64,000 nt of DNA, from positions 1 to 64,000 of the forward strand of contig NZ_JABBCH010000017.1 of assembly GCF_012952295.1 (NCBI RefSeq). The letters are read 5' to 3'. The translations under genes were made by a program, and so were the position numbers. A model generated the notes under the pieces. It searched no databases and was not told the origin of the DNA. It worked only from the letters and a program-made list of their open reading frames with translations. Below are positions 41,258-64,000 of this stretch, one piece after another. Source of the stretch: Crystallibacter degradans. Lineage in GTDB: Bacteria > Actinomycetota > Actinomycetes > Actinomycetales > Micrococcaceae. The stretch's first letter is position 1; each line of letters starts with the position of its first letter.

Positions 41258-42481
41258 TTGGTCTTACGGAGCTCTTCTTTCGACCCGACAGATTTGGTCG
41301 CGGGAGTCGATACCCACACCGACACGCACACTCTGGCCATACTGACCGCTCAGGGCGGGACCGTCCTGACCCAGACATTCACTGCCGACATGCACGGATA
41401 CGCCGATCTCATCACGGCACTGCGCGCGGCAGGGCACGTAGCGGTGGTCGGGGTGGAGGGCACGAACTCGTACGGCGCCGGCCTGACTCGGGCCCTCAGG
41501 GGCGCCGGGTACGCGGTGAAGGAAGTGCTGCGCCCTGCCCGGCAGGTCCGTCGGATGCGTGGCAAATCTGATCCAATCGAAGCGATCGAGGCGGCCCGCA
41601 CGGTGATCTCGGGCCACGGTGTCTCCGATGCGAAGGACACCCAGACAGCTACTGAATCCCTCCGATTCCTGCTCACCGCCCGCGCCCAGCTCATCAGCAC
41701 CATGACTGCACTGGGCAACAGCATCACCTCGATGCTCATCACCGCCCCGGAGACGGTCCGGGCCAAGTACCGCGGACTCGCCACCCCGGCTTTAATCAAA
41801 CGCCTCACGGCCAGTCGCCCCGGCGAGCAGTGCGACTCTCCACACACCGCAGCCCTACACGCCATGCGGCAGCTGGCAAGAGCCCGAGAGGATGCCAGCA
41901 GCAAAGCTGAACACCTCGAACAACAGATGCGCCAGCTGCTGGCAACACACTACCCGCAGGTCCTGGCCATCTACGGGGCCGGAACTATCGTCGCCGCCCA
42001 GCTCGTCGTCACTGCCGGCGGCAATCCCCAACGGATCCGCAACGAGGCGGCATTCGCTTCCCTCTGCGGCGTGGCACCGATCCCTGCCTCCTCCGGGCGT
42101 ACCAACCGGCACCGGCTCAACCGCGGTGGAGATCGTCGCGGCAACAGCGCCCTGCACCGCATCACGCTCATCCGGATGCAACGCGACAAACGAACACAAG
42201 ACTACGTCGCCCGCAGAACCCGTGAAGGCAAGAGCACCAAGGAAATCATGCGCTGCCTCAAACGCGCTATCGCCAGAGAGGTCTACCGAGCCCTCACCGC
42301 AGAACAATCGCCGGCGACGCAGCATGACTTCAAGGCACTCCGGGAGTCGAAGCGCCTTACCCTCAGCCAAGCAGCCGCAGCCCTACGCACCCAGCCGGCC
42401 CGCATCTCCGACATCGAGAAACAACGGCGCCCCCTGCCCGAACTTACCGCTCGCTACAAGCAATGGCTCGAAGCCGCTTGA
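41258..42481 (+). CDS. IS110-family transposase (DEDD recombinase) with C-terminal HTH
   Basis: RNA-guided serine/RuvC-like recombinase that moves the element. Start is a TTG at 41258 (LVLRSSSFDP) five bases after AAGGAGG; 407 residues. RuvC-like domain: AGVDTHTDTHTLAI (D), VVGVEGTNSYG (E), RRMRGKSDPIEAIEAAR (D, then E where the family has a fourth D). Tnp domain with the catalytic Ser region IYGAGTIVAAQLVV and CGVAPIPASSGRTNRHRLN. An XRE-like HTH tail follows (LTLSQAAAALRTQPARISDI), as in several actinobacterial IS110 proteins. Confidence 0.92.
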   Translation: MVLRSSSFDPTDLVAGVDTHTDTHTLAILTAQGGTVLTQTFTADMHGYADLITALRAAGHVAVVGVEGTNSYGAGLTRALRGAGYAVKEVLRPARQVRRMRGKSDPIEAIEAARTVISGHGVSDAKDTQTATESLRFLLTARAQLISTMTALGNSITSMLITAPETVRAKYRGLATPALIKRLTASRPGEQCDSPHTAALHAMRQLARAREDASSKAEHLEQQMRQLLATHYPQVLAIYGAGTIVAAQLVVTAGGNPQRIRNEAAFASLCGVAPIPASSGRTNRHRLNRGGDRRGNSALHRITLIRMQRDKRTQDYVARRTREGKSTKEIMRCLKRAIAREVYRALTAEQSPATQHDFKALRESKRLTLSQAAAALRTQPARISDIEKQRRPLPELTARYKQWLEAA

Positions 42482-42736
42482 CACAGAATAGGATCATCGC
42501 TGATCCCCCGGGCTCATCGGTACGCGATCTGGGCTCTCAGGTAGTCCTCGTGCTCGGGCTCAGCGTGGCGAACATTAGAACGCCCCGTCCAAGTGGAGGA
42601 TCCTCCAATGATCCGTATCGTCGCCCCTTATCTTGGGGAACCGGATCTAGCGGGAGCTCGAAGAATTTCGGGTCTGGCCTTGTCCAAGAGAACATACACA
42701 GGCCATGCTGAGGGACCCGGAGAAAGCTAGGTTCCA
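42482..42736. other. Intergenic region after IS110
   Basis: About 255 bases without a supported gene. They include the IS110 right end (not delimited) and the 12-bp palindrome GGAGGATCCTCC near 42595-42606. No homology recognised. Confidence 0.4.
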
Positions 42737-42910
42737 GTGAATGCATCTGTTAACAGGACGCTCAGTGTCATTTGCTTTGTCCTCGCGTTTCTTGCCCTCG
42801 TCGGACTGGCTTTAGTTTGGTGGGGAGGATCTGTTCCAGGCGCCCTCGTCGGGATCCTAATTTTCCTGGGCCTAGTCAACCTGGGGATTGTATTGTTCCG
42901 TCGAAGCTAA
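42737..42910 (+). CDS. Small two-span membrane protein (57 aa)
   Basis: GTG at 42737 to TAA at 42910. The product begins MNASVNRTLS and has two hydrophobic segments (VICFVLAFLALVGLALVWW and ALVGILIFLGLVNLGIVLF) ending in RRS. A weak GGAGAAAG precedes it. It resembles the other tiny membrane proteins at 43.0, 45.4, 45.8 and 46.1 kb in size and layout. Function unknown; supported by coherent hydrophobic pattern rather than homology. Confidence 0.55.
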   Translation: MNASVNRTLSVICFVLAFLALVGLALVWWGGSVPGALVGILIFLGLVNLGIVLFRRS

Positions 42911-43043
42911 GCAGCCGTCATCACTTAAAGGCGGCCTCACAAGAATTCCCGGAGCGTCCCATAAGCGATCCACTCCGGGGGATCTCGGGGATCCAACAGC
43001 ACACGTATTTTCTAGGCGAGGGAAGAGCGAGATAGTTGAGCTT

Positions 43044-43283
43044 ATGGATCAGTTCCCCGAATCGTCCCTGATGCGGCAACGCAAGATGAAGCGGCTAGCC
43101 AAGGCTTGTTTCGCTCTCGTTTTGGTGGCCGTTGCCTTGCCTGTCCTAATGGGACTGCTCGGTATGAACCTGACGCTGCCAATGAGTCTCGTGGCCGTCA
43201 TTCTGTTGATCGTTGGCGTGATCATATGGACTCGATCTGATCCTGCTTATGCGGCCAGGATGCAGAAGCGGGAGTCGCGTTAG
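43044..43283 (+). CDS. Small two-span membrane protein (79 aa)
   Basis: ATG at 43044 (MDQFPESSLMRQRKMKR), preceded by GGGAAGAGCGAG; 79 residues. A basic cytoplasmic start is followed by two membrane helices (ACFALVLVAVALPVLMGLLG and LPMSLVAVILLIVGVIIW) and a charged tail (RSDPAYAARMQKRESR). The frame is open further upstream but without membrane or homology features. Resembles small DUF-type inner-membrane proteins; function unknown. Confidence 0.6.
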   Translation: MDQFPESSLMRQRKMKRLAKACFALVLVAVALPVLMGLLGMNLTLPMSLVAVILLIVGVIIWTRSDPAYAARMQKRESR

Positions 43284-43354
43284 CGATCCCTCATCGACAC
43301 TTCACAGCGGGTACAGAAGTGCTCCAGGGTGGGCGCGGCCATTAGGCTGCTGGT

Positions 43355-44176
43355 GTGGGGAGAACGCGAAACAGGGAACCGAGGGCGGCCGCTCGGAAGC
43401 CGATATACATCGAAACTTTCGTTCGGGCGCCCTTCGACAAATTGTGGGACCTGAGCCAGAACCCGGAGCAGCATCCCCGATGGGACCTACGGTTCTCCAG
43501 AATTATTCCGATCAGCATCGGCGATGACGGGCTCACCCATTTCCGGTATGAATTCAGTCTTCCCTTTCATACGATCATGGGAACCGGCGTATCCCTAGGC
43601 GACCGGTTCCGGGCCGACGGACAGGCAACATCTGTACTGAAATTCTCCACCGGAGATCCTCTATCGCCCATCGGACCCGGCTCCGGGTACTGGCGCTATA
43701 TTCCAACGGATCGCGGTATCCGATTCATCACCGGGTACAACTACCACCCGGGCATGGGCATGGCCGGCCGGATCCTGGACCACCACATTTTCCGGCCGGC
43801 TCTGGGCTGGGCGACTGCGTTAAGCTTCGACCGTCTTCGCCTGTGGGCGGAAACCGGCCAGGACCCGACAACAGCACCCAACAGGTGGCTCCTTGACGCC
43901 GCCGCCCGCGCTGCTGCCCTTACCGCTGCAGCTGTCTATCTTCAACATGCTCTGGCTCAATCTGGCCAGCATGGCACAGCCGGCTTCGCTCTGGCCGCGG
44001 CAGCAGCAACGGCTGCCGTCCTGCTTCCGGCTCACCGTACGGTGCCGCGCGCGGGACGATGCCTGCGCCGCCCGCCAGCCAGGGACGTGGCCCGGGCCCC
44101 GTCCACACTGGCTACGCTGCCTGCTCCGCAAAATCACCCCGCCAGACCCGAAGGAAAGCGAACAACCGGATCATGA
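43355..44176 (+). CDS. SRPBCC-family (START-like) protein with C-terminal membrane region
   Basis: Lipid/ligand-binding START-fold protein. 273 residues from a GTG at 43355. The SRPBCC part (about 15-165) begins IYIETFVRAPFDKLWDLSQN, continues WDLRFSRIIPI, and has a C-terminal helix ILDHHIFRPALGWATALSFD. The last 90 residues are Ala-rich with two hydrophobic stretches (AAALTAAAVYLQHALA, GFALAAAAATAAVLLP) and a basic Pro tail. Its stop overlaps the start of the DUF4166 gene by four bases (ATGA). Confidence 0.78.
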   Translation: MGRTRNREPRAAARKPIYIETFVRAPFDKLWDLSQNPEQHPRWDLRFSRIIPISIGDDGLTHFRYEFSLPFHTIMGTGVSLGDRFRADGQATSVLKFSTGDPLSPIGPGSGYWRYIPTDRGIRFITGYNYHPGMGMAGRILDHHIFRPALGWATALSFDRLRLWAETGQDPTTAPNRWLLDAAARAAALTAAAVYLQHALAQSGQHGTAGFALAAAAATAAVLLPAHRTVPRAGRCLRRPPARDVARAPSTLATLPAPQNHPARPEGKRTTGS

Positions 44177-44856
44177 CCTCGATCTTCATGAAGGCCCTGG
44201 GAGATGACTTCCAGCGGCTTCATCCGATGCTGCAACGACGCTTCGGCGTCAGCGTGGACGCCGGCTATGCCTGCATCGGTTCCGGCGCCTTCGCCGAAGT
44301 CCGGCGCGGAGCCTGGTGGACAAATCCTTTCCTGCGTTTTGGCGCGTTCCGCAACATCCTCTTCCCCGACAGCGGAACGAACGTTCCCTTCACGATCGAA
44401 AACTACCCCTACATCGACGGCCTCGGCCGGGAAACCGTGACATTTGTCAGAACCCTTCAAATGGGTCCGCGACGAAAGCGCCGCTTCGACGCCACCATGA
44501 TCTACAGTTCCGAACAAGACCAGATCATCGACTATCTGGGCACCCACCAGCACCTCGCCACAGGTCTGGACCTCAAAGTTCTGCCCGATGGTTCCCTACA
44601 TCTGACCTCCGGGGCACAACGCTTTTACGAAGGCTCCCTCGGGTTCACCTTTCCGGCAGCATTCACCGGCACCGCCGAACTCCACGAGACCTACGATGAG
44701 ATACGCCAGGTATTCACGGTACGGATGCATGTCCACAATCCCCGCTTCGGGTTCCTCTTCGGATACCGCGGCGACTTCACCTGCGAATTCCCATCCGTGA
44801 CACCCGCAAGCATCCCCTCACACCTCAAGCCCGTCCGGGAAGAGTCGCGTCAGTAG
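44173..44856 (+). CDS. DUF4166 domain-containing protein
   Basis: 227 residues of a conserved family of unknown function. Features: MTSIFMKALGDDFQRLHPML, QRRFGVSVDAGYACIGSG, an aromatic/Asn-rich middle (FRNILFPDSGTNVPFTIENY), LGTHQHLATGLDLKVLPDGS and a FGFLFGYRGDFTCEF end. Translationally coupled to the SRPBCC gene, suggesting the two bind or handle the same lipid-like ligand; that is inference. Confidence 0.85.
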   Translation: MTSIFMKALGDDFQRLHPMLQRRFGVSVDAGYACIGSGAFAEVRRGAWWTNPFLRFGAFRNILFPDSGTNVPFTIENYPYIDGLGRETVTFVRTLQMGPRRKRRFDATMIYSSEQDQIIDYLGTHQHLATGLDLKVLPDGSLHLTSGAQRFYEGSLGFTFPAAFTGTAELHETYDEIRQVFTVRMHVHNPRFGFLFGYRGDFTCEFPSVTPASIPSHLKPVREESRQ

Positions 44857-44909
44857 AAGCGCGCCATTTGGTGATCCTTTACCGCACTGTCATCGCGACT
44901 TCGTCGCGG

Positions 44910-45233
44910 CTATGAAACGTTCCGATCGGGTGTCGCGTGCGCGGAGTCGGTTGGCAACGTCGAAGGACCCTCTCGAATTGCATTTGAATGTGCGTCGCCG
45001 TGCTCGACGACTTCGATCACGACCGAGTCCCATCGGTCAACCTCGGTGCCCGCCGATGGATGCTGCCAAGTGATATAGAAGAGACCTGGCCAAGCGAGTG
45101 CGCTGATCGGCGGACCGTCGGGATCAGGATTGGCGAGGGTGACACCTGCTTTGGAGGCCACGTCCCGGCCGACATGGAACGGCATTCCAACCACGTTGGG
45201 AACAATGGCTCGTTCTGGCGTCCGCTCGTCCAT
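44910..45233 (-). CDS. PASTA domain-containing small protein
   Basis: 107 residues. The segment VPNVVGMPFHVGRDVASKAG followed by VTLANPDPDGPP and WQHPSAGTEVDRWDSVVIEV has the PASTA layout (VPxVxGxxxxxAxxxLxxAG...P.AG..V..Gs.V.v). No signal peptide or membrane helix precedes the single domain, unlike PASTA kinases and PBPs, so it may be cytosolic. A short polar tail follows. Isolated gene between oppositely oriented neighbours. Confidence 0.7.
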   Translation of the reverse strand: MDERTPERAIVPNVVGMPFHVGRDVASKAGVTLANPDPDGPPISALAWPGLFYITWQHPSAGTEVDRWDSVVIEVVEHGDAHSNAIREGPSTLPTDSAHATPDRNVS

Positions 45234-45410
45234 GACTTAAAGGTACGCGTTAGATTCTTCTCCGACCATGATTCAATGCTCTACTGGGCGCCAGCAATTC
45301 GGTGCCCGCGCGTGCCCTAGGACGATCGGCTGATGTGACGGCTCGCTTGAGCAACGAAGGCTCATAGCCCTGCCTAGGAAAAGCACAGGTCGACGTTGCT
45401 AACTTGAGCC

Positions 45411-45635
45411 ATGGACGGTTCCGATTCAGACACGAAACTGCGGCGGGCACTTCTCGGGACTTCCTTTGCCTTCGGCATGGCTCTTGTTGGTTCCGGCATG
45501 TTCTTGGCATCGCTGATGATGGGCGTTCCTCTCACCGGAACGGCTTTCAACCTGGCCTGGATACTGGTGTCGGTGGGACTTTGCCTGAGTCTTTTCTGGT
45601 TCGTGGCCTACCTGCGTGTCATACGCAGAAGATAG
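45411..45635 (+). CDS. Small two-span membrane protein (74 aa)
   Basis: ATG at 45411 (MDGSDSDTKLRRALLG); 74 residues with two helices (SFAFGMALVGSGMFLASLMM and FNLAWILVSVGLCLSLFWFV) and basic end RVIRRR. No strong ribosome binding site. Third member of the run of tiny membrane proteins in this island; function unknown. Confidence 0.6.
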   Translation: MDGSDSDTKLRRALLGTSFAFGMALVGSGMFLASLMMGVPLTGTAFNLAWILVSVGLCLSLFWFVAYLRVIRRR

Positions 45636-45829
45636 GGCCCGCCCTGTTGGAGGGATCCAGAAGGGGACATGCCTTAGACGAACGGCGACGCAGCGAAGGA
45701 TTCCTTTCCAGCTCTTCTGGCTTCTTCTAGTACGGTTCACGGCTTCCGCTGAAAGTGTTGCCGTCATATGAGGCGTGAAGCATGCTTGGTCTAGATCGGA
45801 AGGACGCGGCTTCGGATGAAAGAAGAATA

Positions 45830-45988
45830 ATGGACCGGCTAAAGACGTGGCAGAAGGTTCTTGTCGGATTTGGAATAGCAGTCGTCGCCCTTATCTTGCT
45901 GGCCCTGTTCCTTCCCGCTGACTTCCGATGGGGAGCCGCTCTTCCTATGACTCTTGTTCGTCGCATACATGGCCCGTTTAGGCAGTGA
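45830..45988 (+). CDS. Small single-span membrane protein (52 aa)
   Basis: Start taken as the ATG at 45830 (MDRLKTWQKVLVGFG) preceded by GAAAGAAG; an upstream in-frame ATG at 45782 would add 16 polar residues. One helix (VLVGFGIAVVALILLALFLP) then a short amphipathic tail (MTLVRRIHGPFRQ). Function unknown. Confidence 0.45.
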   Translation: MDRLKTWQKVLVGFGIAVVALILLALFLPADFRWGAALPMTLVRRIHGPFRQ

Positions 45989-46069
45989 TTACATGAATCG
46001 AAACAACCGCCCTTCGAGGGAAATCGATAATCCTAAGTGAAGGACCTCTAGGCATCGGGAGCAAAACAA

Positions 46070-46284
46070 ATGACTCCAAAAAGAATCCTCATATTCCTTG
46101 GCCTGCTGGTGGCCGTGGGAATAGCAGTCTGGATCATGACAGGATTCTCTGGTGACATCCTAGCTGCGGTAGTTATGGCCCTTGGCGTGGCCTTGGCGGC
46201 GACGTGGGGCGTCCGGTGGGGAAGCGCCCAGGCACGCGAAACTGAAGAGTATCGGCAGGATCTTATAGCGCGAAGGAAAAAGCC
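46070..46284 (+). pseudogene. Small membrane protein gene interrupted by IS21
   Basis: ATG at 46070 behind GGGAGC encodes two hydrophobic segments (ILIFLGLLVAVGIAVWIM, ILAAVVMALGVALAATWG) and a charged end ARETEEYRQDLIARRKKP, at which point the IS21 element begins (46285). Joining 46284 to 48918, after removing one 6-bp duplication, continues the frame as ETEIPPDSEPGS and stops at 48955-48957, giving an intact 84-residue protein. The present-day frame instead reads about 20 codons into the IS and ends at 46348. Confidence 0.8.
46279..46284. repeat. IS21 target-site duplication, left copy
   Basis: AAAGCC immediately left of the element is repeated at 48912-48917 immediately right of it. A seventh matching base is shared with the element end, so the duplication is 6 or 7 bp. 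Confidence 0.85.
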
Positions 46285-46380
46285 TGTCAAGGGCCAGTAT
46301 TTCCTGCCCATTGGCGGCCAGGTTATGTGCCCGCCGGTGGCCAGTTAAACTGCCCGGTGGTGGCCAGCAAATCTGCCCAC
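46285..46380. repeat. IS21 left terminal repeat array
   Basis: Four copies of a roughly 22-bp unit (GGCCAG...CTGCCC) at a period of 22-24 bases, beginning at the terminal TGTCA. Confidence 0.8.
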
Positions 46381-46417
46381 GTCGTGTTCTGCGGGGCTGG
46401 CCGTCCACCGGTTCGGG

Positions 46418-47200
46418 TTAGTTCAGGGCGTTGACTCCTTTCCCGGCGAGGGCCTGGGTCAGGCGGATGGATTTACCGCTGGTCTGGCAGACGTGGGCGT
46501 GGTGCAGCAGCCGGTCCACGGTCGCGGTGGCGAGGGTCTTGGGCATGAGCTCGTCGAAGCCGGCCGGGTGCAGGTTCGAGGAGACCGCGACGGAGCGTTT
46601 CTCGTAGGCGGCGTCCACGACACGGTAGAGGCCTTCGGCGGCGTCCGCGGCAACCGGGAGCAGGCCGATGTCATCGATCACGACGAGTTCGGCGCGCAGG
46701 ATCCGGGTGACGGCTTTGGTGACGCTGTCATCGGCGCGGTGGGCGCGGATCAGCGTGCCGAGGTCTTCGAGGGTGAACCACGCGACGCGCATCCCGGCTT
46801 CGACGGCCTGCTGGCCCAGGGCTTCGAGGAAGAAGGTCTTCCCGGTCCCGGAAGGCCCGCAAACGACGAGGTTCTCGCGCCGGGTGATCCATTCCAGGGT
46901 ACGTAGGGACTGCTGCGTCGGTGCCGGGATCGAGGACGCCTCGGGGTCCCAGGCGTCGAAGGTTTTCCCGGTCGGGAAGCCGGCGGCCTTGCGCCGGGTG
47001 GCGAGCATGGAGCGGGCGCGGCCTGCTGTTTCCTCGGCGAAGAGGGCTTTGACGATTTCGGCCGGTTCCCAACGCTGGGCGCGGGCGGTGGCGAGCAGCT
47101 CCGGGGCCAGCGCGCGGGCGTGGGGCATTTTCAGCTGCCGCATCAGCTGCTCGAGGTCTGCCGGCAGCGGCGGTGCGGTGGTTGTGGGCACGGGGTTCAT
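46418..47200 (-). CDS. istB: IS21-family helper ATPase IstB
   Basis: DnaA/AAA+-type ATPase that activates IstA and selects targets. 260 residues, full length. Walker A CGPSGTGKTFFLEAL, Walker B LVVIDDIGLLP, sensor VAVSSNLHPAGFDELMP, C-terminal VDRLLHHAHVCQTSGKSIRL. The start overlaps the istA stop by four bases. Looks intact, so it could serve an active IS21 copy elsewhere. Confidence 0.95.
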   Translation of the reverse strand: MNPVPTTTAPPLPADLEQLMRQLKMPHARALAPELLATARAQRWEPAEIVKALFAEETAGRARSMLATRRKAAGFPTGKTFDAWDPEASSIPAPTQQSLRTLEWITRRENLVVCGPSGTGKTFFLEALGQQAVEAGMRVAWFTLEDLGTLIRAHRADDSVTKAVTRILRAELVVIDDIGLLPVAADAAEGLYRVVDAAYEKRSVAVSSNLHPAGFDELMPKTLATATVDRLLHHAHVCQTSGKSIRLTQALAGKGVNALN

Positions 47201-48715
47201 TCGGTGTCTTCCTTCGCGTTGATGGCGCCGAGGGCGGACCAGGCGGCGGTGCCCTGGGTCAGGGAGCGGGTTTCGCCGGCGGCGTGGGTGGTGGTCCGGC
47301 GGGCGCCGGCGTTGAGGATGGAGGCCAGGTCGCCGTGGGCGAAGCGCCCGTTGACGGCGGCGTTGCCCAGCGCCCGGTCGACCGCGGCGGTGCCGGCGAT
47401 TTTGGCCAGGGTCACGGCTTCGGCCATTTTCACGTTCATCCGGGCTGTTCCGGCCGCGGCGGCTTCGAGGAGCCAGGTCCGGGCGCCGTCGCCGATCGCG
47501 AGGAACTCGGCCTCCGCGGCGGTGCGGGCCGTGACCGTGTAGTCGCCGGGGATTTTCTCGCCGCTGCCGGGGAAATGCTCGTCAATGATGGCCGGGCTGC
47601 CCGGGCGGGCACGCCGGTGGCGGGCGACCTCGACCGGTCCCGCCGGGCCGTGGTGGACGATGATGACCTGCTCATCGATGCCGGTGCCGTGGGTGCGCAC
47701 GAACACGCGGGCGCCGAGGGTGCGCCGGCACGGAGTACTGCGCGTTTTCGAACGTGACCATCGGCGTGTTCTGGGGAACCGTGCGGGAGAGCCCGAACGC
47801 GACCGTATGCGCGGCGTCCGGGATCCGGTGGAGCCGGGGCTGTTCCTCGGCGAGCATCGCCGCGGGCTTGCGCCGGGTCACCCGGTGCTCACGGTGGTTG
47901 ACCTCGTCCATGAACGCCTCGCACGCCGATTCCAGCCCGGCGAACGTGGTGTACTCGGCCAGAAGGTTGGTGTCGGTGGGTACGATGTCGGCCTTGGCCA
48001 GTTTCACCGAGGCTTCGACGCCGCCCTTCGTCGCCGGATCGGCCGGCTGGCACGTCAGCACGCTCACCCCGTAATGCCGGGCGAACTCCAGGGTCTGCTG
48101 GTTACGTACCGGCACCCCGGCAACATGCATCGTGGTGACGGTTTTCTCGTTATCGGTCAGCACATACGTCGGGGCGCCGCCGAGGATGCGGAAGCACCGG
48201 TCCAGGGCTGCGAACACGCTCGGCGCGGTCCGGTCCCGCAGCGGGATCACGATCCGGAACCGGGACCAGGCCAGCCACGCGACGAACAGGATCGTCTTGA
48301 CCCCGCCGATCCGGGGGCCGTCACCGAAATCATACTGAAGCCACATCCCGGGCTCCGTGATCCAGGGCCGGTGCACGCGGGTATGGCCCAGCCGCCAGGC
48401 CGCCTTGACCTGATGGACGGCGCGGCGGGTGGAACGCTCGGAGCCCTCGTAGCCGAGCAGGCGCAGCGTCCGGTGTACCTTATCCGCTCGGACCCGGCTG
48501 TTGGAGCGGTCGACCATTTCTTCGATCTTCGGCATGAACGCGTCCGTGACCCGGTCCCGGACCGCGCGTTCGGCGATCGGGCGTCCGGCATCACGGGCAG
48601 CAACATGTTTGGCCACCGTGTGGTGCGAACAGTCGGCCAGTTCGGCCGCGGCACGGAACGAGCCGGTCAGTTCGTAGGCAGCAAGAATTTCCATGATTTC
48701 TCCGTCAGACTTCAT
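47197..48715 (-). pseudogene. istA: IS21-family transposase IstA, frameshifted
   Basis: The N-terminal 330 residues read from 48715 (MKSDGEIMEILAAYELTGSF) with HTH, and a DDE core whose acids are visible in MWLQYDFGDGP, YVLTDNEKTV and TKGGVEASVKLAKAD. After VTFENAQYSVPAH the frame is lost near 47717-47722; the remaining C-terminus (VFVRTHGTGIDEQVIIVHH onward, ending GAINAKEDTE) continues in another frame to 47197. The expected His-Leu-Leu-Gly-Ala-Arg junction is explained by loss of two bases. A programmed frameshift is less likely because no slippery run is present. Confidence 0.85.
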
Positions 48716-55867: not shown

Positions 55868-56329
55868 TTACGATAAGGCGTCCTTGACCTTGCCCATCAG
55901 GCCGTCCTCTCCAGAGGAACCGTTCCCAAGGCTGGCCAGAAGCTCATTGCAGGCCTGCTCGCAGCGCCGGCAGGATTCCGCGCAGACACGGCAGTGCTCG
56001 TGCATGGAAGCATGCCGTTCGCACTCATCCGCGCACGCCTTGCAGGTCGCGGCGCAGGCCTGCAGGACAGCCCGGGTCACGTTAGCGTCGTAACCGGTGT
56101 GGCGGGAGAGGACGTTCCCGGTCGTGACGCAGATGTCCGCGCAGTCCAGGTTCGTCCGGATGCATTTGGTCAGTTCGGCAACCATGCCTTCGCTGAGACA
56201 GGCGTCCCCGCAGGCTGTACACGTCTGCGCGCATTCAAAACACGCTGCAATACACTCCGCAAGCTTCGACTTGTCGATACCTCCCAGATCCTTCGGGTAG
56301 GTATCAAGCATTGAGGTGATGTGGCTCAT
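55868..56329 (-). CDS. Four-helix-bundle copper storage-like protein (Csp/DUF326)
   Basis: Predicted cytosolic Cu(I) store. Start at the ATG at 56329 (MSHITSMLDTYPKDLGG) with AGAAGGAGC upstream; 153 residues without signal peptide. Eighteen cysteines, mostly in CxxxC/CxxC spacing along helices: CIAACFECAQTCTACGDAC, KCIRTNLDCADIC, ACAATCKACADECERHASMH, CRVCAESCRRCEQAC. The number and lack of a Tat signal match the cytosolic Csp3 type rather than Csp1. Same strand as the DUF305 gene upstream, separated by two strong hairpins. Confidence 0.88.
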   Translation of the reverse strand: MSHITSMLDTYPKDLGGIDKSKLAECIAACFECAQTCTACGDACLSEGMVAELTKCIRTNLDCADICVTTGNVLSRHTGYDANVTRAVLQACAATCKACADECERHASMHEHCRVCAESCRRCEQACNELLASLGNGSSGEDGLMGKVKDALS

Positions 56330-56459
56330 TATTGCTCCTTCTGCGTATCCGTGGATGGAGCGGACGGCCCTACCGGCCACCCCCGCAATCCACAGTAGCC
56401 TTACTATTGGGCCGCCGGAACCCCTCGCCGGGGTCCCACGGCCGGGACTTCAAGTTCCC

Positions 56460-56502
56460 GCTGGACTTCGACCCCGCATGAACCGGGGGTTCGAAGTCCA
56501 GC
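56460..56502 (-). terminator. Stem-loop between DUF305 and Csp-like genes
   Basis: GCTGGACTTCGA (56460-56471) pairs with its complement at 56491-56502, extended by a C4-5/G5 inner stem with one bulged base. No T tract. Confidence 0.55.
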
Positions 56503-56508
56503 CGGGTG

Positions 56509-56541
56509 TCCTGTCGCCGCAGGCGGTCTGCGGCGACAGGA
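56509..56541 (-). terminator. Perfect stem-loop downstream of DUF305 gene
   Basis: TCCTGTCGCCGCA (56509-56521) pairs perfectly with 56529-56541 around a 7-nt loop, 40 bases after the DUF305 stop. Probably terminates that transcript or acts as a processing site. Confidence 0.65.
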
Positions 56542-56580
56542 CAAGCGCTCTGCCAGGTGCCGGGAAGAAATGACGGAGTG

Positions 56581-57279
56581 CTAGTGCCTGCCTGAAAGCC
56601 AGGTACGGAAATCCGCGGCTTCGGCTTCCTGGGTCACGATTCCCGTGGTTGCGGCCACGCGCAGCTCGGCGTGGGGAGCCCGTGACTGCGGCTCGAGGAA
56701 CTCGATGATTCCGGCTTGATGATGTGGAATCATACGCACCACGAAGGCTTCATCGAAGTCATCGCCGGCTTCGACCCGGCGCAGTTCCCGGATCGTTCGT
56801 TTCGTTTCACGGTCCATCTCCCTCATTTCCGCGCGAGCTTCACGCGGGGCCTGCTCCCGGGCTTCCTCAGGGGTCAGCCCATACCATTCGTCCAGCCACC
56901 GGGTGAACTGGTCGATCTGATGCTGCTGGCTGGCAATGATGTTCTCCGCATGGGTGCGGATATCAGGGTCCTCACCCCGCTCGAGTTCGAGCTGCGCCAT
57001 CTCGATGGCAGCTCGGTGGTGCGGGATGATAGCGGCCATAAACGTGACTTCAAGCTCCTCACCTTCCAAGCCGGCAAGGGTTTCCCCGAACTCATAGGCG
57101 GTCGGCGACGTCGGTTCCGGCTGCACATCTGATTGTGACGCGGCAGTTTCTGCCGTTGCCGGTGCCATCAGAACTTGCGCGGAGGCAGTTGCTGCAGGGA
57201 CACCAGCAAGCAGGGCCGCCAGGACAACTGCGGAGGCCGCAGCGGTGCGGCCGCGGCGGCTACCAGGAATGGTTTGCAT
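56581..57279 (-). CDS. Exported double-DUF305 protein
   Basis: Secreted ferritin-like-fold protein linked to copper/metal handling in actinobacteria. 232 residues from the ATG at 57279 with AAGGGAGAG upstream. A signal peptide (ASAVVLAALLAGVPAATASA) is followed by two DUF305 halves with the metal-motif MAAIIPHHRAAIEMAQ near 80 and VVRMIPHHQAGIIEF near 185, and conserved RTHAENIIASQQHQIDQF. No Cys. Neighbourhood with the Csp-like gene supports a joint role in copper homeostasis. Confidence 0.9.
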   Translation of the reverse strand: MQTIPGSRRGRTAAASAVVLAALLAGVPAATASAQVLMAPATAETAASQSDVQPEPTSPTAYEFGETLAGLEGEELEVTFMAAIIPHHRAAIEMAQLELERGEDPDIRTHAENIIASQQHQIDQFTRWLDEWYGLTPEEAREQAPREARAEMREMDRETKRTIRELRRVEAGDDFDEAFVVRMIPHHQAGIIEFLEPQSRAPHAELRVAATTGIVTQEAEAADFRTWLSGRH

Positions 57280-58425: not shown

Positions 58426-58752
58426 GCTGGGCGTCCGGAACGAGGCCTGCGCTCTGGGGCAAGGCCCGCCTCCGGACACCGGCCACACAAGGGCAGGAAC
58501 AGCCGCAACGCTCCCGGGCCGCTCCACCAGCCACAGGCCCGAACTCTACGCGGCATTCTCCCGCCCGCCTCAAAACCATCAACAGATCGGGCCCCCGGCA
58601 CGCCCGGATCAGATCGTCGAAATACCCCCGTTCAGCAGCGACGCGCCGCTTACTGTATGAGGTCACGCCGGGGCCCGGCAGCAAGCTTGATGCTTGCTGC
58701 CGGGCCGGTGCCGCTGTTCCCCCGGGCTGCGGTCCCCCTTCAGGTGGCTGTC
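58426..58752. other. Region between IS1182 remnant and IniB-domain gene
   Basis: About 330 bases with no supported gene. CGGGGCCCGGCAGCAAGC and its inverse around 58671-58710 form a stem-loop (GCCCGGCAGCAAGC...GCTTGCTGCCGGGC) about 45 bases past the IniB-domain stop, a plausible terminator. Confidence 0.55.
58673..58707 (-). terminator. Stem-loop terminator after IniB-domain gene
   Basis: GCCCGGCAGCAAGC (from about 58674) and GCTTGCTGCCGGGC (to about 58706) form a perfect 14-bp stem around a short loop, in the right place for transcript ending from the minus-strand IniB-domain gene. Confidence 0.75.
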
Positions 58753-60090
58753 TTAGCCGGCTGCGTGCTCTGCCGCGGGTTCGATCTCAGCCTCGAGGTT
58801 GAGCTCGTTGTCTTCGATGATGACGGAGTCATCGATCGGGGCGAATTCGAGGTCGATGTCTCCGACCTCGACGTCGGTATTCGTCGAGTTATCGGAGTTG
58901 TCGTTGAACGAATCCTCCAGCTCCACGTCGATCTCGGTGTTGCCCACATTCTCCAGGGAGTTATCGGTCGAGTTGTCGTTGAACGAATCCTCCAGCTCCA
59001 CGGAGTTATCCGTCGAGTTATCGTTCAGCGAGTCCTCCAGCTCGACCTGCACGGAGTTGTCCGTGGAGTTGTCCTCATTGAACGAGTCTTCCACCTTGAT
59101 CTCGGTGTTGCCCACGTCTTCCAAGGAGTTGTCCGAGTTGTCGTTGAACGAATCCTCGAGCTCGACATCGATGTTCTCCGAGTGGTCCTCGGAGTTGTCG
59201 TTGAACGAATCCTCGAGGTCCACGTCGACGGAGTTGTCCTCGGAGTTATCGGAGTTATCGTTGAACGAATCGTCCAGGTCGACGTCGGTGTTGTAGGAGT
59301 CTTCGACCGACTTGTCCTCATTGAAGGAGCCGTCGATGTCCGTATCGATGTCGGTGTTGCCGATCTCGATGTTGGCGTCGTCGCCGGCATGGACGTTGGT
59401 GGAGTTATCCTCCGAGTTGTCCGTGGAGTTATCCACCTCGGCGTCGTCGCCGGCAGCCACGGAGTCGTCGCCGGAAGCGATAACCGCGTCGTTATCGAAG
59501 AACTGGGTGACGTCGCCGTCGGCCCAGATGTTCTGGTTCACGGACTGGTCGTTGATGGTGTCCCGGTCATCGATCGTGGAGGTGTAGGAATACTCGTTGA
59601 CGATGTGGGTCAGCTGCTGCACAGCATGGCCGTGGTCATCATCGTGGCCCTTCTCCCCATCCTTGCCGTAATCCTTCTCCGCGTCATTGCCGGAACCCTT
59701 GTCGTGGTCCTTCTCTGCGTCGTGGTCCTTGCCGTGGCCCTCGTCCTTGCCGTAGTCCTTCTCGGCGTCGTGGTCCTTGCCGTGGCCCTTCTCGGCGTCC
59801 TCGTCCTTACCGTGGCCTTCGTCCTTGCCGGCACCGTTCCAACCGTTGTCGCCGCCGGCCCAGGAGGTGTTGCCGCCGGTTTCGTAGTCGCGGTCGAAGG
59901 ATGAATCGGCCCGGACCGGGGCGTAGTCCAGGATGACAGGCATGATCGCATCCACGTCGTCGGAGCTGACACCGCCGAGGCCGGCAGCTTCGAGGCTGCC
60001 TTCAGGGTCTTCGCGGAAGTCCGCGGCGGCTTCCGGATCGCGGAGCAGGTTCATGATGAATTCAAGCAATGAAGAAGCAAGTGTAGGCAT
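58753..60090 (-). CDS. IniB N-terminal domain protein with acidic Asp/Asn/Ser repeats
   Basis: 445 residues; start ATG at 60090 after GGGGAAACC. Residues 1-58 form the IniB N-terminal domain (LLEFIMNLLRDPEAAADFRE, LGGVSSDDVDAIMPVILDYA). Residues about 88-155 are Lys/Asp/His/Gly repeats (KGHGKDHDAEKDYGKDEGHG). A middle part (156-250) has VQQLTHIVNEYSYTSTIDDR and GDVTQFFDNDAVIASGDDS. Residues about 252-405 contain eight units built on EDSFNDNSTDNS. No signal peptide or membrane helix, extremely acidic. Mtb IniB is likewise repetitive but Gly/Ala-rich. Linked to dynamin and BTAD genes. Confidence 0.85.
   Translation of the reverse strand: MPTLASSLLEFIMNLLRDPEAAADFREDPEGSLEAAGLGGVSSDDVDAIMPVILDYAPVRADSSFDRDYETGGNTSWAGGDNGWNGAGKDEGHGKDEDAEKGHGKDHDAEKDYGKDEGHGKDHDAEKDHDKGSGNDAEKDYGKDGEKGHDDDHGHAVQQLTHIVNEYSYTSTIDDRDTINDQSVNQNIWADGDVTQFFDNDAVIASGDDSVAAGDDAEVDNSTDNSEDNSTNVHAGDDANIEIGNTDIDTDIDGSFNEDKSVEDSYNTDVDLDDSFNDNSDNSEDNSVDVDLEDSFNDNSEDHSENIDVELEDSFNDNSDNSLEDVGNTEIKVEDSFNEDNSTDNSVQVELEDSLNDNSTDNSVELEDSFNDNSTDNSLENVGNTEIDVELEDSFNDNSDNSTNTDVEVGDIDLEFAPIDDSVIIEDNELNLEAEIEPAAEHAAG
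58890..59310 (-). repeat. DNA-level tandem repeats within IniB-domain gene
   Basis: The unit GTTGTCGTTGAACGAATCCT and close variants recur seven to eight times at irregular 54-78 base spacing, coding for the EDSFNDNS units. The repeats are similar enough at DNA level to allow slippage or recombination. Confidence 0.85.
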
Positions 60091-60757
60091 GAGTGGTTTC
60101 CCCAGTTCGTGTATGGATGGTGGCCCGCCGGGCGTTGCTGCCTGGCGTGATTCAAACCTAGGACAGGGGGGCCGGGACCGGCATCGGTAGTTTCCCCCCT
60201 ACTGGCAGGCACCCGCATGGGGATTGCACAGTCCTTGGATTAGGTAGTGAGGGGTTTCGACGTTTCCGCTTTGAGGGGCGGTGTTTAAAAGACGACGAAA
60301 AGGAACACCACAAGGTCCGGGATGGTGAAGCCCGCGCCGGGCAAGATAATCCGATGGTGAACGTAAGGGTTTGCGTTTCCCGAATCGCTACGCGCCCGTG
60401 CCTGCGCAGATAAAGCGGCGGGCTGTCTTGGCAACGGCCGCTCCTGGCGGCACGTCATTTCAAAGGCGCTCGAATCAGAACCCTTGCGCCGGCGCACAAC
60501 CGGGAAGAGGGCTGAACGACGACCGGTGGCTGCGATGGCGTAAAACCCCCAAGACTAGCATCACAAATACTGCGTGAGAGCTTTCCTCACGAATCCCCTG
60601 CCGCAGACGTTCCAGACTGCCTTACTCGGAATCACAATTCTGTACAACCCCTGACTGTAGGGGGTCCCGGACATGCCTCAAATGTACCAGCGAACTCACT
60701 GTTAGCGGGCATGATGGAAGAAGCATTCGTGGGGAATGCGAGATGCAAGGGGGATGT
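60091..60757. promoter_or_regulatory. Divergent control region between IniB-domain gene and BTAD regulator
   Basis: A 667-bp gap separates the two divergent genes. It contains the IniB leader, an imperfect hairpin GGTGTTT...GGAACACC at about 60281-60310, and the AAGGGGG site for the regulator start. Its unusual length for this genome suggests several regulatory sites; no specific operator is identified. Confidence 0.45.
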
Positions 60758-61702
60758 GTGGAGCAATTAACCGCAGGGCACGCCACGCCCATTTCTGTAC
60801 AGATGATCGGCAATCTTGAAGTCCGTCGGGGCAGAACCGTCCTGACGTCGGCCACGTTGGGCAGTCCGAAGGCCAGGCAGGTCTTTGAAATTCTGCTGCT
60901 GCGGCTCGGCTCGCCCGTTTCCAAGGACGAGCTCATTGAGCTGCTCTGGGATGGCAGTCCGCCGGGCAAGGCACTGGCCACACTGGAAAGCTATGTCAGC
61001 CTGCTGCGGCGCACCCTGCAGCCTGGCAGTGTGAGGACCGGGCCGTTGCGCACCGCGACCGGCAGCTATGTCCTGGACCCCGGTCTGGTGGAGGTTGACC
61101 TGGTCCGGTTCAACCAGCTGGTCGCCCTGTCCCAAGGACGTGAACCGGCGGGTGCCTATCCCCTGCTGGTGCAGGCGCTGAAGCTGGGTTCGGCGCCGCT
61201 GCTTGGGGACGAGCTGGACGTTGAGTGGGCCGAAGGGGCGCGTGCCCGGCACGCCTCGGTGGTGACCTCGGTGCAGATCCGGGCCGCCGAGGCTGCCGGG
61301 CGCCTGGGCCTGACTGCGGAGGCACTCGGCTGGGCCGGACAGGCCGTGGCGTCGGAACCGTTGAATGAACTGGCCTGGTCCGCGTTGGTTACCTCGCTGG
61401 AATCGTCCGGCCGTTATGCCGAAGGTCTGCAGGCCTACGATAGGTGCCGGCGGCTGCTGGACCACGAGCTCGGCTGCCTGCCGGGACCGGACCTGCGCGC
61501 AGCCCACGCGCGGCTGCTGCAGAAAACCGTCGAGGAAGACGGCGAACTCACCGAAGTCCTCGAAGCCTTGCTCTACCTGAACGACCGGATCCGGTCCCAA
61601 ACAATGCGCAGGAGTATGCGGGCGGCCGGGCGCGGCAGGTGTCGCCGCCGTGTGTTAATTCCGCACGCCGGGTCATCAGCTCTTTCCTTGACAAAGCACT
61701 AA
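60758..61702 (+). CDS. BTAD-domain (SARP/AfsR-like) transcriptional regulator
   Basis: Start taken as GTG at 60758 (MEQLTAGHATP) with AAGGGGG upstream rather than the ATG five codons earlier; 314 residues. N-terminal OmpR-type winged helix (VQMIGNLEVRRGRTVLTSAT, ELIELLWDGSPPGKALATLE, YVSLLRRTLQPG) is followed by the all-helical BTAD domain (YVLDPGLVEVDLVRFNQLVA, EPLNELAWSALVTSLESSGR, AYDRCRRLLDHELG). No ATPase part, so it is a small SARP. It is divergent from the IniB-domain gene and upstream of an excisionase-like gene, and likely controls this locus. Confidence 0.9.
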   Translation: MEQLTAGHATPISVQMIGNLEVRRGRTVLTSATLGSPKARQVFEILLLRLGSPVSKDELIELLWDGSPPGKALATLESYVSLLRRTLQPGSVRTGPLRTATGSYVLDPGLVEVDLVRFNQLVALSQGREPAGAYPLLVQALKLGSAPLLGDELDVEWAEGARARHASVVTSVQIRAAEAAGRLGLTAEALGWAGQAVASEPLNELAWSALVTSLESSGRYAEGLQAYDRCRRLLDHELGCLPGPDLRAAHARLLQKTVEEDGELTEVLEALLYLNDRIRSQTMRRSMRAAGRGRCRRRVLIPHAGSSALSLTKH

Positions 61703-61725
61703 CCGTCGGCTGAGGTGCGGCTCCC

Positions 61726-61932
61726 ATGACGGCTAACCGGGTGGACGGTAACGGGACGTTTCTGTCGGTTGCGCAAGTGGCCGGACACCTGCACGTGTCG
61801 AAAATGACCATTTACCGCCTGATCCATACCGGGAAGCTGCCGGCTGTCCGGATCGGCCACACCTACCGTGTCACAGAGAAGGCCGTGGGCGAGTACTTGG
61901 AAAACGGTGTTGTCCGGACCGGACCCGCATAG
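61726..61932 (+). CDS. Stand-alone excisionase/MerR-like HTH protein
   Basis: 68 residues: FLSVAQVAGHLHVSKMTIYR, LIHTGKLPAVRIGHTYRVTE, KAVGEYLENG. This is the helix-turn-helix 'excisionase family' fold (HTH_17) used by small activators and phage Xis proteins. It follows the BTAD gene by 23 bases on the same strand, so co-transcription and joint regulation of the IniB/dynamin genes are likely; no integrase or att site is visible that would support a role in excision. Confidence 0.88.
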   Translation: MTANRVDGNGTFLSVAQVAGHLHVSKMTIYRLIHTGKLPAVRIGHTYRVTEKAVGEYLENGVVRTGPA

Positions 61933-62493
61933 CCTTGCCTCAGGCGGTGGGGTTCGGGCCGTCTTCGGCGGTTAATTCAGGCAGCTTCCGCCTTGTGCAG
62001 GAAAACGGGAGACCCTCGAAAAATTTTGCCGGGCTGACATGGCCCCCCGTTGCGCCGCGGCGGGAGGAAACGGTTTTTTCCGTGCCTGTTGCCCGCTCCG
62101 TGCCGGGACCCGTTCCTGCGGAAGTCCAAGAGTCCAACACCGTAGAGTTCGTGATGCCCTCCGCCGCCCGGCCGCAGATGTGGCCGGCCCAGGTGTACCG
62201 GTGCAGGTGTCGGCGCCAACGCATACGCAGGCAGGCAGTAGCGGAACGTGGGTCGTCCGGCGGCGCGGCAGTGCCGGCAAGGGGTGCGGACACGCAGAAA
62301 GGCAGGCGATGAAGCGCACCATCGTCGGATAACGCATCGACGGGCGGGCGATCAGCGGCAGGGTACGTTCAGGCAGCCCGGAGCAATGGTGTGGCCGGGG
62401 TGTCGGTTGGCATTCGGGGGCGGCAGTAAGACTTGTGTCCGGGGGGGTCCGGTGGCGGTCGTTGGCCTTAGCCTCATGCCGGCGGTGGCCGGA
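61933..62493. other. Intergenic region between HTH and dynamin genes
   Basis: About 560 bases between convergent genes. Open frames here lack recognisable homology or good starts. I see no terminator of note. Confidence 0.4.
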
Positions 62494-64000
62494 TCAGGCT
62501 GTTGCCCGCCGGCTGGGGGCTGGTTCCGCTCCGAGTTTCAGGCGTGCGGTCACCGGCGGCGGGCCCGGGCCGTCGGCTTCCGGGGCCAGGAGCGCCTCGC
62601 AGCTGCGGACCACGGTCCGGCACGCTTCGGCGGCCGCGTGGCCGGTCAGGGGGTTCTCGGACACCGTACGCCAGCGGCGCAGGCAGGCCATGGCTGCCGA
62701 TCGCAGCTCGCCGTCGGTCGCTTCCCTGCCCAGTCCCAGGCGCTGTTGCGGGGCGATGCCTTGGCCGCCGATGAGACGTTCGGCCTCCGCGGCCAGCTCC
62801 GATGCCAGGGCCAGGCCGGTTGTGCGGGCTTCTGCCAGCAGCCGCAGTTCGCGGAATTCGTGGGCGCCGGCCTGGATGCGTTCAAGCGAAGCGGCGAGCC
62901 GTTCCGTGCCGGTGCAGGGGCGTTCCCGCAGCAGCCTCTCGATGCCGGCCACTGCGGTGCGGGCTTTCAGCTGCGCCGCGCGTGCCTGGAACTGCCCGGA
63001 GAGCAAGGCCAGCAGCTCGTTCAGGCCGCTGCGGCGGGCCAGTTCGTGTGCCAGCGGTGTCGGTTCGGTCAGGCCGCCGCGGATCAGCGCCGAAGCGAGC
63101 CGGATCCCGAAGAGGCCGAAGCGTTCCAGGAGGGCGGCGCGGACTTCGGGGCCGGCATCTGTGGGCGCGGCTGGGCGGATGAACCTGTCGGCGGATAAGA
63201 GCAGCTTCTCCCGTTCGGCGCGGTCCAGCCGGGCGATGTCCGCCAGCGCGTGGAATTCGCTCTGGCGCAAGGTGCGTGCGCTTTGGGCGAGCAGGCCGGC
63301 GATGGGCACCACGCCCAGGGCCAGTGTCCGCAGGGATCGGTCGCTGCAGTAGCGTCGGGCGATTTCACGGGCCGAAAGGAGCGAATCGATGCGGCCGGCG
63401 CCGATCTCGTCGGCACGCGAGAGTACGGCCAGGGTGTTGACGGTTCCCGAATGGCCGGCGGCGGTGTCCCGGAAGGATTCCAGGAAGTTCAGGTCCGCGG
63501 CGTGCAGGTGGCGCATGAGGTAGATGATTGCGTCCGCCTCCGAGGGCGCGTCCTTGGGTGTCAGGAAACCGATGGAGCCGGCGGAGACGTCGCCGGATAA
63601 CGACGCGATGCCCGGGGTGTCGATCAAGGTGATCTCGCGCAGGCTCTTCGCAGGCCAGTCCACCACCAGCCGATTGACCTCCGCGGCGCCGGTGGCCCCC
63701 ATGTCGAAGTGGAGTCGGCCGTCGGTCCTTTTCAGGGGCAGGGTCCGGGGTTCCCCTTCGCGGGGGTGCAGCGTGACCCGCGGGGTGTCCCGGTAGCGGT
63801 ACCAGGTCACCATGCGGGTGCATTCACCGGTGTCGGTGGGGGCGATTTCTTCCCCGATGATGGCGTTGAGCAGGGTCGATTTGCCGGCCTTGACCATGCC
63901 GGCCACTGCCACGCGCAGGGGCTCCTCAAGGCGGCGGGCATGGTCCTCCAGTGTCGTGCGTGCGGCCGGGTCGCTGTCGTAGACCTCTATGGCCTCCCGG
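62494..64000 (-). CDS. Dynamin-family GTPase (IniA/IniC-like), 5' end outside window
   Basis: Large membrane-remodelling GTPase. The frame stays open to the right edge (EVYDSDPAARTTLEDHARRL precedes the first internal Met at 63912), so the N-terminus is missing here; 502 codons are visible. G1 GMVKAGKSTLLNAIIG, G2 DTGECTRMVTWYRY, G3 LIDTPGIASLSGDVS, G4-like VLSRADEIGAGR. The helical C-terminal part lacks an obvious long hydrophobic paddle. Mtb IniC (about 490 residues) and IniA are the closest described relatives. Same strand as, and 2.4 kb upstream of, the IniB-domain gene. Confidence 0.88.
   Translation of the reverse strand, partial: REAIEVYDSDPAARTTLEDHARRLEEPLRVAVAGMVKAGKSTLLNAIIGEEIAPTDTGECTRMVTWYRYRDTPRVTLHPREGEPRTLPLKRTDGRLHFDMGATGAAEVNRLVVDWPAKSLREITLIDTPGIASLSGDVSAGSIGFLTPKDAPSEADAIIYLMRHLHAADLNFLESFRDTAAGHSGTVNTLAVLSRADEIGAGRIDSLLSAREIARRYCSDRSLRTLALGVVPIAGLLAQSARTLRQSEFHALADIARLDRAEREKLLLSADRFIRPAAPTDAGPEVRAALLERFGLFGIRLASALIRGGLTEPTPLAHELARRSGLNELLALLSGQFQARAAQLKARTAVAGIERLLRERPCTGTERLAASLERIQAGAHEFRELRLLAEARTTGLALASELAAEAERLIGGQGIAPQQRLGLGREATDGELRSAAMACLRRWRTVSENPLTGHAAAEACRTVVRSCEALLAPEADGPGPPPVTARLKLGAEPAPSRRATA

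Follow-up and report, generated by a model that had tools for sequence, protein, structure and literature searches.

A probable accessory second ini cluster with a duplicated iniB gene, candidate promoter boxes and a conserved 3′ hairpin in Crystallibacter degradans

A 64,000-base stretch of DNA from Crystallibacter degradans (the window; bases 1-64000 of contig C34, NZ_JABBCH010000017.1, which is 74,906 bases long and belongs to a draft assembly of 124 contigs) ends within a gene cluster related to the mycobacterial iniBAC operon, and the locus can be traced rightward past the window edge. With good confidence, we read this locus as a second, accessory copy of the ini cluster of actinobacteria, with its iniB gene duplicated to the far side. 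The sequence evidence for this reading lies in the genes present and their order, in conserved boxes in the promoters, in a conserved hairpin 3′ of iniB and in purifying selection. The original prediction, made from the window alone, had placed here a gene for an IniB-domain protein, a small BTAD regulator, an HTH_17 protein and a dynamin, and had proposed a non-mycobacterial cluster of the iniBAC type. Open reading frame calls and profile matches recovered all four genes at the positions described, the gene content bore out the proposed type of cluster, and the second dynamin (IniA) and the Hsp70-like gene for which it had suggested looking further right do follow. The features of the locus, numbered along C34, are:

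58649-60257, minus strand: duplicated block holding iniB, about 167 promoter bases and the 3′ hairpin; its other copy lies at 65881-67438
58672-58706, minus strand: predicted RNA hairpin directly 3′ of iniB1, perfect 15-bp stem and 5-nt loop
58753-60090, minus strand: iniB1, 445 amino acids; NCBIfam IniB_NTERM (NF038175), E=2.4e-20 (72.2 bits; cut-off 40)
60182-60201, minus strand: iniB1 promoter box of the TAGGGG..CCGATG type, candidate IniR site
60650-60664, plus strand: element with TAGGGGG ahead of the BTAD gene, a weak lead
60743-61702, plus strand: small SARP, the BTAD gene, 319 amino acids; Pfam BTAD E=3e-21, partial Trans_reg_C winged helix E=5e-7
61726-61932, plus strand: HTH_17 or excisionase-type DNA-binding protein; Pfam HTH_17 E=4.4e-14, TIGR01764 E=1.6e-15
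62494-64000 and past the window end, minus strand: iniC, dynamin-like GTPase; Dynamin_N E=1.8e-13, or E=7.4e-14 for the longer open reading frame, whose likely start is at about 64035, 35 bases beyond the window
64032-65861, minus strand: iniA, second dynamin, 609 amino acids, with a Dynamin_N match
65985-67271, minus strand: iniB2, 94% identical to iniB1 in DNA, IniB_NTERM above the cut-off
about 67644-68879 and 68809-70176, minus strand: iniR in two overlapping frames; NCBIfam IniR (NF038181), E=2.6e-54 and 1.3e-87
70183 to about 72129, minus strand: Hsp70-like gene; HSP70 E=1.3e-45

Transcription runs in the order Hsp70, iniR, iniB2, iniA, iniC, with the BTAD and HTH_17 genes on the opposite strand, between the two iniB copies, converging on iniC and diverging from iniB1. 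The two dynamin-like GTPases are adjacent, and one is close to IniA, its best solved match being Mycobacterium smegmatis IniA (6j72, residues 3-597, E=1e-145). Simple pairwise ratios of nonsynonymous to synonymous substitution (dN/dS) fall between 0.15 and 0.30 in every gene compared; the genes are therefore not chance open frames and, by this measure, are under purifying selection. The cluster shares with mycobacterial iniBAC (PLoS Genet 2017, PMC5760070; IniA structure in Nat Commun 2019, PMC6715688) the N-terminal domain of IniB, a pair of dynamin-like GTPases (gene order iniB-iniA-iniC) and an adjacent homologue of IniR, a regulator of the ATPase/LuxR type. It differs in the tail of IniB, which is acidic here and Gly/Ala-rich in mycobacteria, in the Hsp70-like gene that immediately precedes iniR on the same strand, and in the extra iniB copy.

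The five-gene set is widely conserved among relatives. With the cluster's own IniA as query, the best 80 of 163 relatives were taken as named loci, a choice that under-samples distant relatives; 57 of the 80 lie in stretches of at least 21 kb, and in the other 23, which are shorter, a neighbouring gene could escape. All five ini genes passed our score thresholds in 54 of those 57 loci, the exceptions being L144, whose Hsp70 match fell short of the threshold, L147, which has just iniA and iniC, and L158, where none of three iniB genes reached the threshold. The order is plain in 41 loci, plain with two iniB genes in three and otherwise arranged in five, and in eight iniB, iniR and the Hsp70-like gene lie on the opposite strand. 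The IniB domain itself occurs in 8 of 10 genomes of the genus and 13 of 149 of the family. Beyond these, an Hsp70-like gene was detected in 8/8 further phylum loci, where a general Hsp70 model could also catch DnaK, and adjoins iniR in six (L189-L194). Five of those six belong to family f6, presumed mycobacterial, and four of the five have two IniB-domain genes.

Another contig of the same genome, C33, carries a further five-gene ini cluster with a single iniB and an unbroken IniR of 868 amino acids. In a quick-method IniA tree, the C33 copy clusters with Arthrobacter sp. VKM Ac-2550 and is separate from the C34 copy, which falls among sequences of the same genus; the same-genus genome G008 stands outside that group. 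Synonymous divergence (dS) between the C34 and C33 clusters is 0.62 for iniA, 0.87 for iniC, 0.95-1.05 for iniR and 1.66 for Hsp70. Divergence of the C34 BTAD and HTH_17 genes from their paralogues on contig C1 (dS 0.53 and 0.92) is comparable to that of iniA and iniC, with iniR and Hsp70 further apart. The entire block could have been imported from a single relative of the same genus, which would fit these figures.

The boxes upstream of iniB are proposed as a candidate IniR operator. Among 79 iniB upstream regions, which include the near-identical pairs L082/L083 and iniB1/iniB2, CCCCTA occurs in 63 (dinucleotide-shuffled mean 8.9) and either CCCCTA or TAGGGG in 68. A longer form, GGGG-N2-12-CCGATG, is found in 51 (block-shuffled mean 0.47, maximum 3), and 46 of these 51 sites begin 97-113 bases ahead of the start codon. 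Phylum-wide, CCCCTA precedes all 18 iniB-domain genes examined (shuffled mean 1.1), so that either box is likewise present in 18/18, among them genes of the presumed mycobacterial family f6, which is a further likeness to iniBAC; these 18 were our choice from 27 loci, eight others being below the cut-off and one (L168) barely above it. Chromatin immunoprecipitation sequencing placed IniR upstream of iniBAC (PMC5760070), and the portion of that paper available to us names no IniR sequence motif; another motif in the iniBAC promoter has been assigned to a different regulator, HpoR (PMC13413693). A second TAGGGG..CCGATG site on contig C35 and in relatives was rejected, its last bases being the start codon of an unrelated gene.

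At the other end of iniB, the hairpin found directly 3′ of iniB1 recurs between iniB2 and iniA, with folding z-scores of -3.2 (iniB1 flank), -4.0 (iniB2 flank) and -3.7 (C33 flank). Within 58 post-iniB sequences (57 iniB-iniA spacers and the iniB1 flank), 54 contain a hairpin matched by no more than one dinucleotide shuffle in 100, the failures being L098, L101, L108 and L158. When the 120-140 bases following each stop codon were compared, a better-than-shuffled hairpin followed 73/80 iniB genes, against 5/86 for iniA, 3/82 for iniC, 3/75 for iniR and 1/66 for hsp70 (12/309 in total); some loci are nearly identical (L026/L157, L082/L083 and the two own copies), and these counts are not fully independent. 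Seven of 12 phylum loci reached the iniB stop codon and all seven have the hairpin (one from the same order, six from family f6). A stem was recovered in 71/76 iniB genes, with 61 distinct 5′ arms, by a search weighing GU and AC pairs alike; its non-Watson-Crick pairs are of GU type in 36 cases and AC type in eight, an excess that points to an RNA read in the iniB sense. No known RNA family reached gathering scores in L009, the 18.9 kb stretch covering this locus. This covarying hairpin is a candidate attenuator that would keep IniB above the dynamins.

The BTAD and HTH_17 genes are probably, to judge from their distribution, a separate genus-level regulatory unit and bystanders at the ini cluster. 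The former encodes a SARP, with a winged helix (Trans_reg_C positions 7-60 of 77) and a BTAD domain; like AfsR/SARP regulators it combines a partial winged helix with BTAD, matching positions 23-270 of 986 in the AfsR model, and it differs from them in its 319-amino-acid length, in lacking the rest of AfsR and in its HTH_17 partner. The latter has the excisionase-type HTH_17 domain; gene calling placed no integrase next to it, no search having been aimed at integrases or at phage or integrative and conjugative element attachment sites, and membership of a two-gene unit with BTAD is likelier than an excisionase context. Each of the 10 genus genomes has small BTAD relatives (E<=1e-40), this genome having four, and six of the ten (G000, where the pair is on C1, and G001, G003, G005, G007 and G009) have an HTH_17 gene beside BTAD, either over 200 kb from the ini cluster or on a different contig. 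The C34 BTAD groups, with support 100/100, in the clade of paralogues linked to HTH_17, and its dN/dS against the C1 paralogue is 0.245. A BTAD gene about 3 kb downstream of iniC in L027-L029, from the same genus, belongs to a different paralogue group and was taken as coincidence; its neighbours recur at C1:242 kb of the C. degradans genome. Within the gap between iniB1 and BTAD, the 181 bases at 60311-60491 match G000:C35, G001:C3 and G007:C10 at 71%, at places with no called genes.

In the original prediction, this pair stood in place of IniR-type control. Its position inside the locus, with BTAD divergent from iniB1 across 652 bases, and a TAGGGGG element in the BTAD promoter that is unseen in aligned orthologues would suit dedicated ini regulators; against this, an IniR homologue lies directly upstream (split, with the unbroken one on C33), the iniB promoters bear boxes common to other iniB genes, and the expected four-gene synteny was not found as far as the regulators are concerned. 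BTAD is near only 2/80 named loci (1/57 in the stretches of at least 21 kb), both from the same genus and of another paralogue group, and HTH_17 near 0/80 within the stretches examined, 23 of them short; among 16 family loci, two of them from this genome, BTAD is present in four and HTH_17 in one, the C34 locus itself. Because the pair is conserved elsewhere in 6/10 genomes and rare at ini loci, the replacement claim fails, and we regard dedicated regulation by the pair as very improbable. A pair captured by the cluster, and now a target or modulator while IniR-type control drives both iniB1 and BTAD, is also an improbable account, if less decidedly so. It draws on the element at 60650-60664, which is 87% (13/15) complementary to 60195-60209 in the iniB1 promoter, TAGGGG not being seen in the aligned upstream stretches of six BTAD orthologues. 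It is however a single short match, the chance of CCCCTA or TAGGGG being estimated at about 7% (from 13.6/79 shuffled regions of about 260 bases), and the arrangement recurs neither in the 80 named loci nor in 14 others from the family. There is, in addition, some small likelihood that the assembly itself has produced part of this arrangement, through a misplaced iniB stretch or a sequencing error behind the iniR frameshift. The two block copies, which end 23 bases past the hairpin, are 94% alike and share 1032 identical bases (58649-59680) beside a diverged 5′ part, and exact identity of this length in a draft assembly favours such an error. On the other side, two direct repeats around a unique middle would, by our reasoning, permit a single linear order, barring excision as a circle; the copies differ in their 5′ parts (dS 0.059 in the N-terminal part) and by several linker insertions and deletions; and more than one iniB is found in 5/80 other loci (L085, L101, L108, L128 and L158). 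Duplication followed by recent gene conversion is our own reading of the two copies, which may also reflect assembly error.

The hairpin could alternatively stabilise or process the mRNA rather than attenuate it, a possibility that we rate tentatively, somewhat on the doubtful side. Its stem is GC-rich as in a terminator, yet no clear U-run follows (the next 10 bases hold 2.4 T on average), which leaves termination a tentative role; retention of the hairpin in 13/15 iniB genes lying on the strand opposite iniA fits a terminator rather than a stabiliser. Together with the missing U-run, several observations weigh against an IniR-controlled accessory cluster as we read it. GGGG-N2-12-CCGATG is missing from 28/79 promoters (13 from Microbacterium, three from Georgenia) and this promoter part was found in 0/18 of the phylum set, a further difference from mycobacterial iniBAC. 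Across the genus genomes, TAGGGG-N3-9-CCGATG occurs 37 times against 43 for a reversed control, and it is absent from the iniB promoters of C33 and several relatives; with no excess over the control and with promoters missed, it does not by itself single out iniB. The C33 IniR scores 475.8 bits against NF038181, which indicates homology and falls short of the equivalog cut-off of 750. The C34 iniR, a LuxR-type regulator gene (L009 11645-14177) with both halves homologous to NF038181, is split into two overlapping frames, so that the cluster may have no working regulator of its own; the halves have dN/dS values of 0.30 and 0.23, still resembling purifying selection, and the split may be a sequencing error. 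Finally, the iniB-like box in the BTAD promoter is a weak lead towards a possible link between BTAD and the cluster. Between iniR and iniB2, a near-perfect 41-base palindrome (L009 11602-11642) separates the iniR stop codon from the iniB2 promoter and is possibly a terminator.

The mechanism that we favour for the IniR-controlled cluster would start with an ATPase of the IniR family sensing an envelope or membrane signal, the acting protein being the C34 copy or, if the C34 gene is truly broken, the unbroken C33 copy in trans. IniR would bind the CCCCTA/TAGGGG boxes upstream of iniB and switch transcription on; the hairpin would end, or stabilise, most transcripts, yielding an excess of IniB, with read-through giving less IniA and IniC. 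Remodelling or sealing of the membrane by the two dynamins would follow, M. smegmatis IniA having membrane-fission activity (PMC6715688). IniB, whose small helical domain carries a long acidic tail that is probably disordered, would serve as an abundant cofactor, and the Hsp70-like protein may act upon IniB or dynamin assembly. That the hairpin, from Micrococcales to the other sampled families, is an attenuator producing an IniB excess, and that the boxes form a phylum-wide IniR operator with or without mycolic acids, is a conjecture that we consider plausible, if a little short of an even chance. If true, the ini module would serve actinobacteria in general for membrane repair, with a fixed ratio of IniB to dynamin and an Hsp70 partner, and would not be mycolate-specific. 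Mycolic acids are not known from Micrococcales, and release of trehalose from mycolate lipids could therefore not be the general signal; free trehalose could still be sensed by IniR. The role of IniB and the signal sensed by IniR are given as open questions in the consulted part of PMC5760070, in which the words “hsp70” and “hairpin” each occur 0 times. Earlier promoter work aside, the iniB 3′ hairpin, the CCCCTA box and the Hsp70-like neighbour were not met in those parts of the literature that were consulted, and the novelty of the boxes and hairpin is provisional. The same module and promoter boxes in soil Arthrobacter relatives argue for a signal not tied to mycolic acids and offer harmless organisms in which to study both questions, with two concrete control elements, the promoter box and the 3′ hairpin, that are directly testable.

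IniB1 itself consists of a four-helix N-terminal domain (about residues 1-56), a linker rich in Asp, Gly, Lys, Glu and His, and an acidic repeat of Asp, Asn, Ser and Glu; it matches no Pfam family at E<=1. Its N-terminal part is common to the Rv0340 family (NF038176, E=2.4e-13), from which it differs in reaching 51.1 bits against a cut-off of 100 and in matching only the first 79 positions of a 178-position model. The acidic repeat is real, with a net charge of -114 over 445 amino acids and eight copies of an EDSFND-like motif spaced 15-25 residues apart. In an AlphaFold model, built on an alignment of the window IniB with 36 of 76 collected IniB sequences, mean confidence (predicted local distance difference test, pLDDT) per block is 88-95 at residues 1-50 and mostly below 50 in the repeat. 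Helices are predicted at 4-17, 19-27, 29-35, 43-56 and 150-166 only; the last is confident and opens the second conserved part of the alignment, and the rest has no predicted fold. A beta-solenoid for the repeat was not supported, the model having no strands and confidence mostly low in the repeat. The model is thus compatible with the disorder that had been suggested for the repeat, as weak evidence from a 37-sequence alignment. The contrast that had been drawn with Gly/Ala-rich mycobacterial IniB holds as to acidity and softens to a matter of degree: within the stretches covered, the residues after position 60 of family f6 IniB-domain proteins are 14-15% Asp and 20% Gly in L164/L165, and 1-3% Asp and 36-40% Gly in L177/L179/L181.

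As for the surroundings, the left part of the window holds what are presumably chromosomal housekeeping genes, recognised from protein starts. With this left part in view, a plasmid origin of the window was thought unlikely, and IniA matches on plasmids (37 records) are below 60% identity. To the left of the cluster lie an IS110-family transposase and IS21-type genes (IstB, integrase core) at 41294-48694, followed by DUF326 and DUF305 genes at 55868-57279; on the right flank, L009 16815-18907 carries a gene with a heavy-metal-associated domain and a multicopper oxidase. Given these metal-related flanks and insertion sequence genes, the cluster may sit in an accessory, metal-linked region resembling a resistance region.

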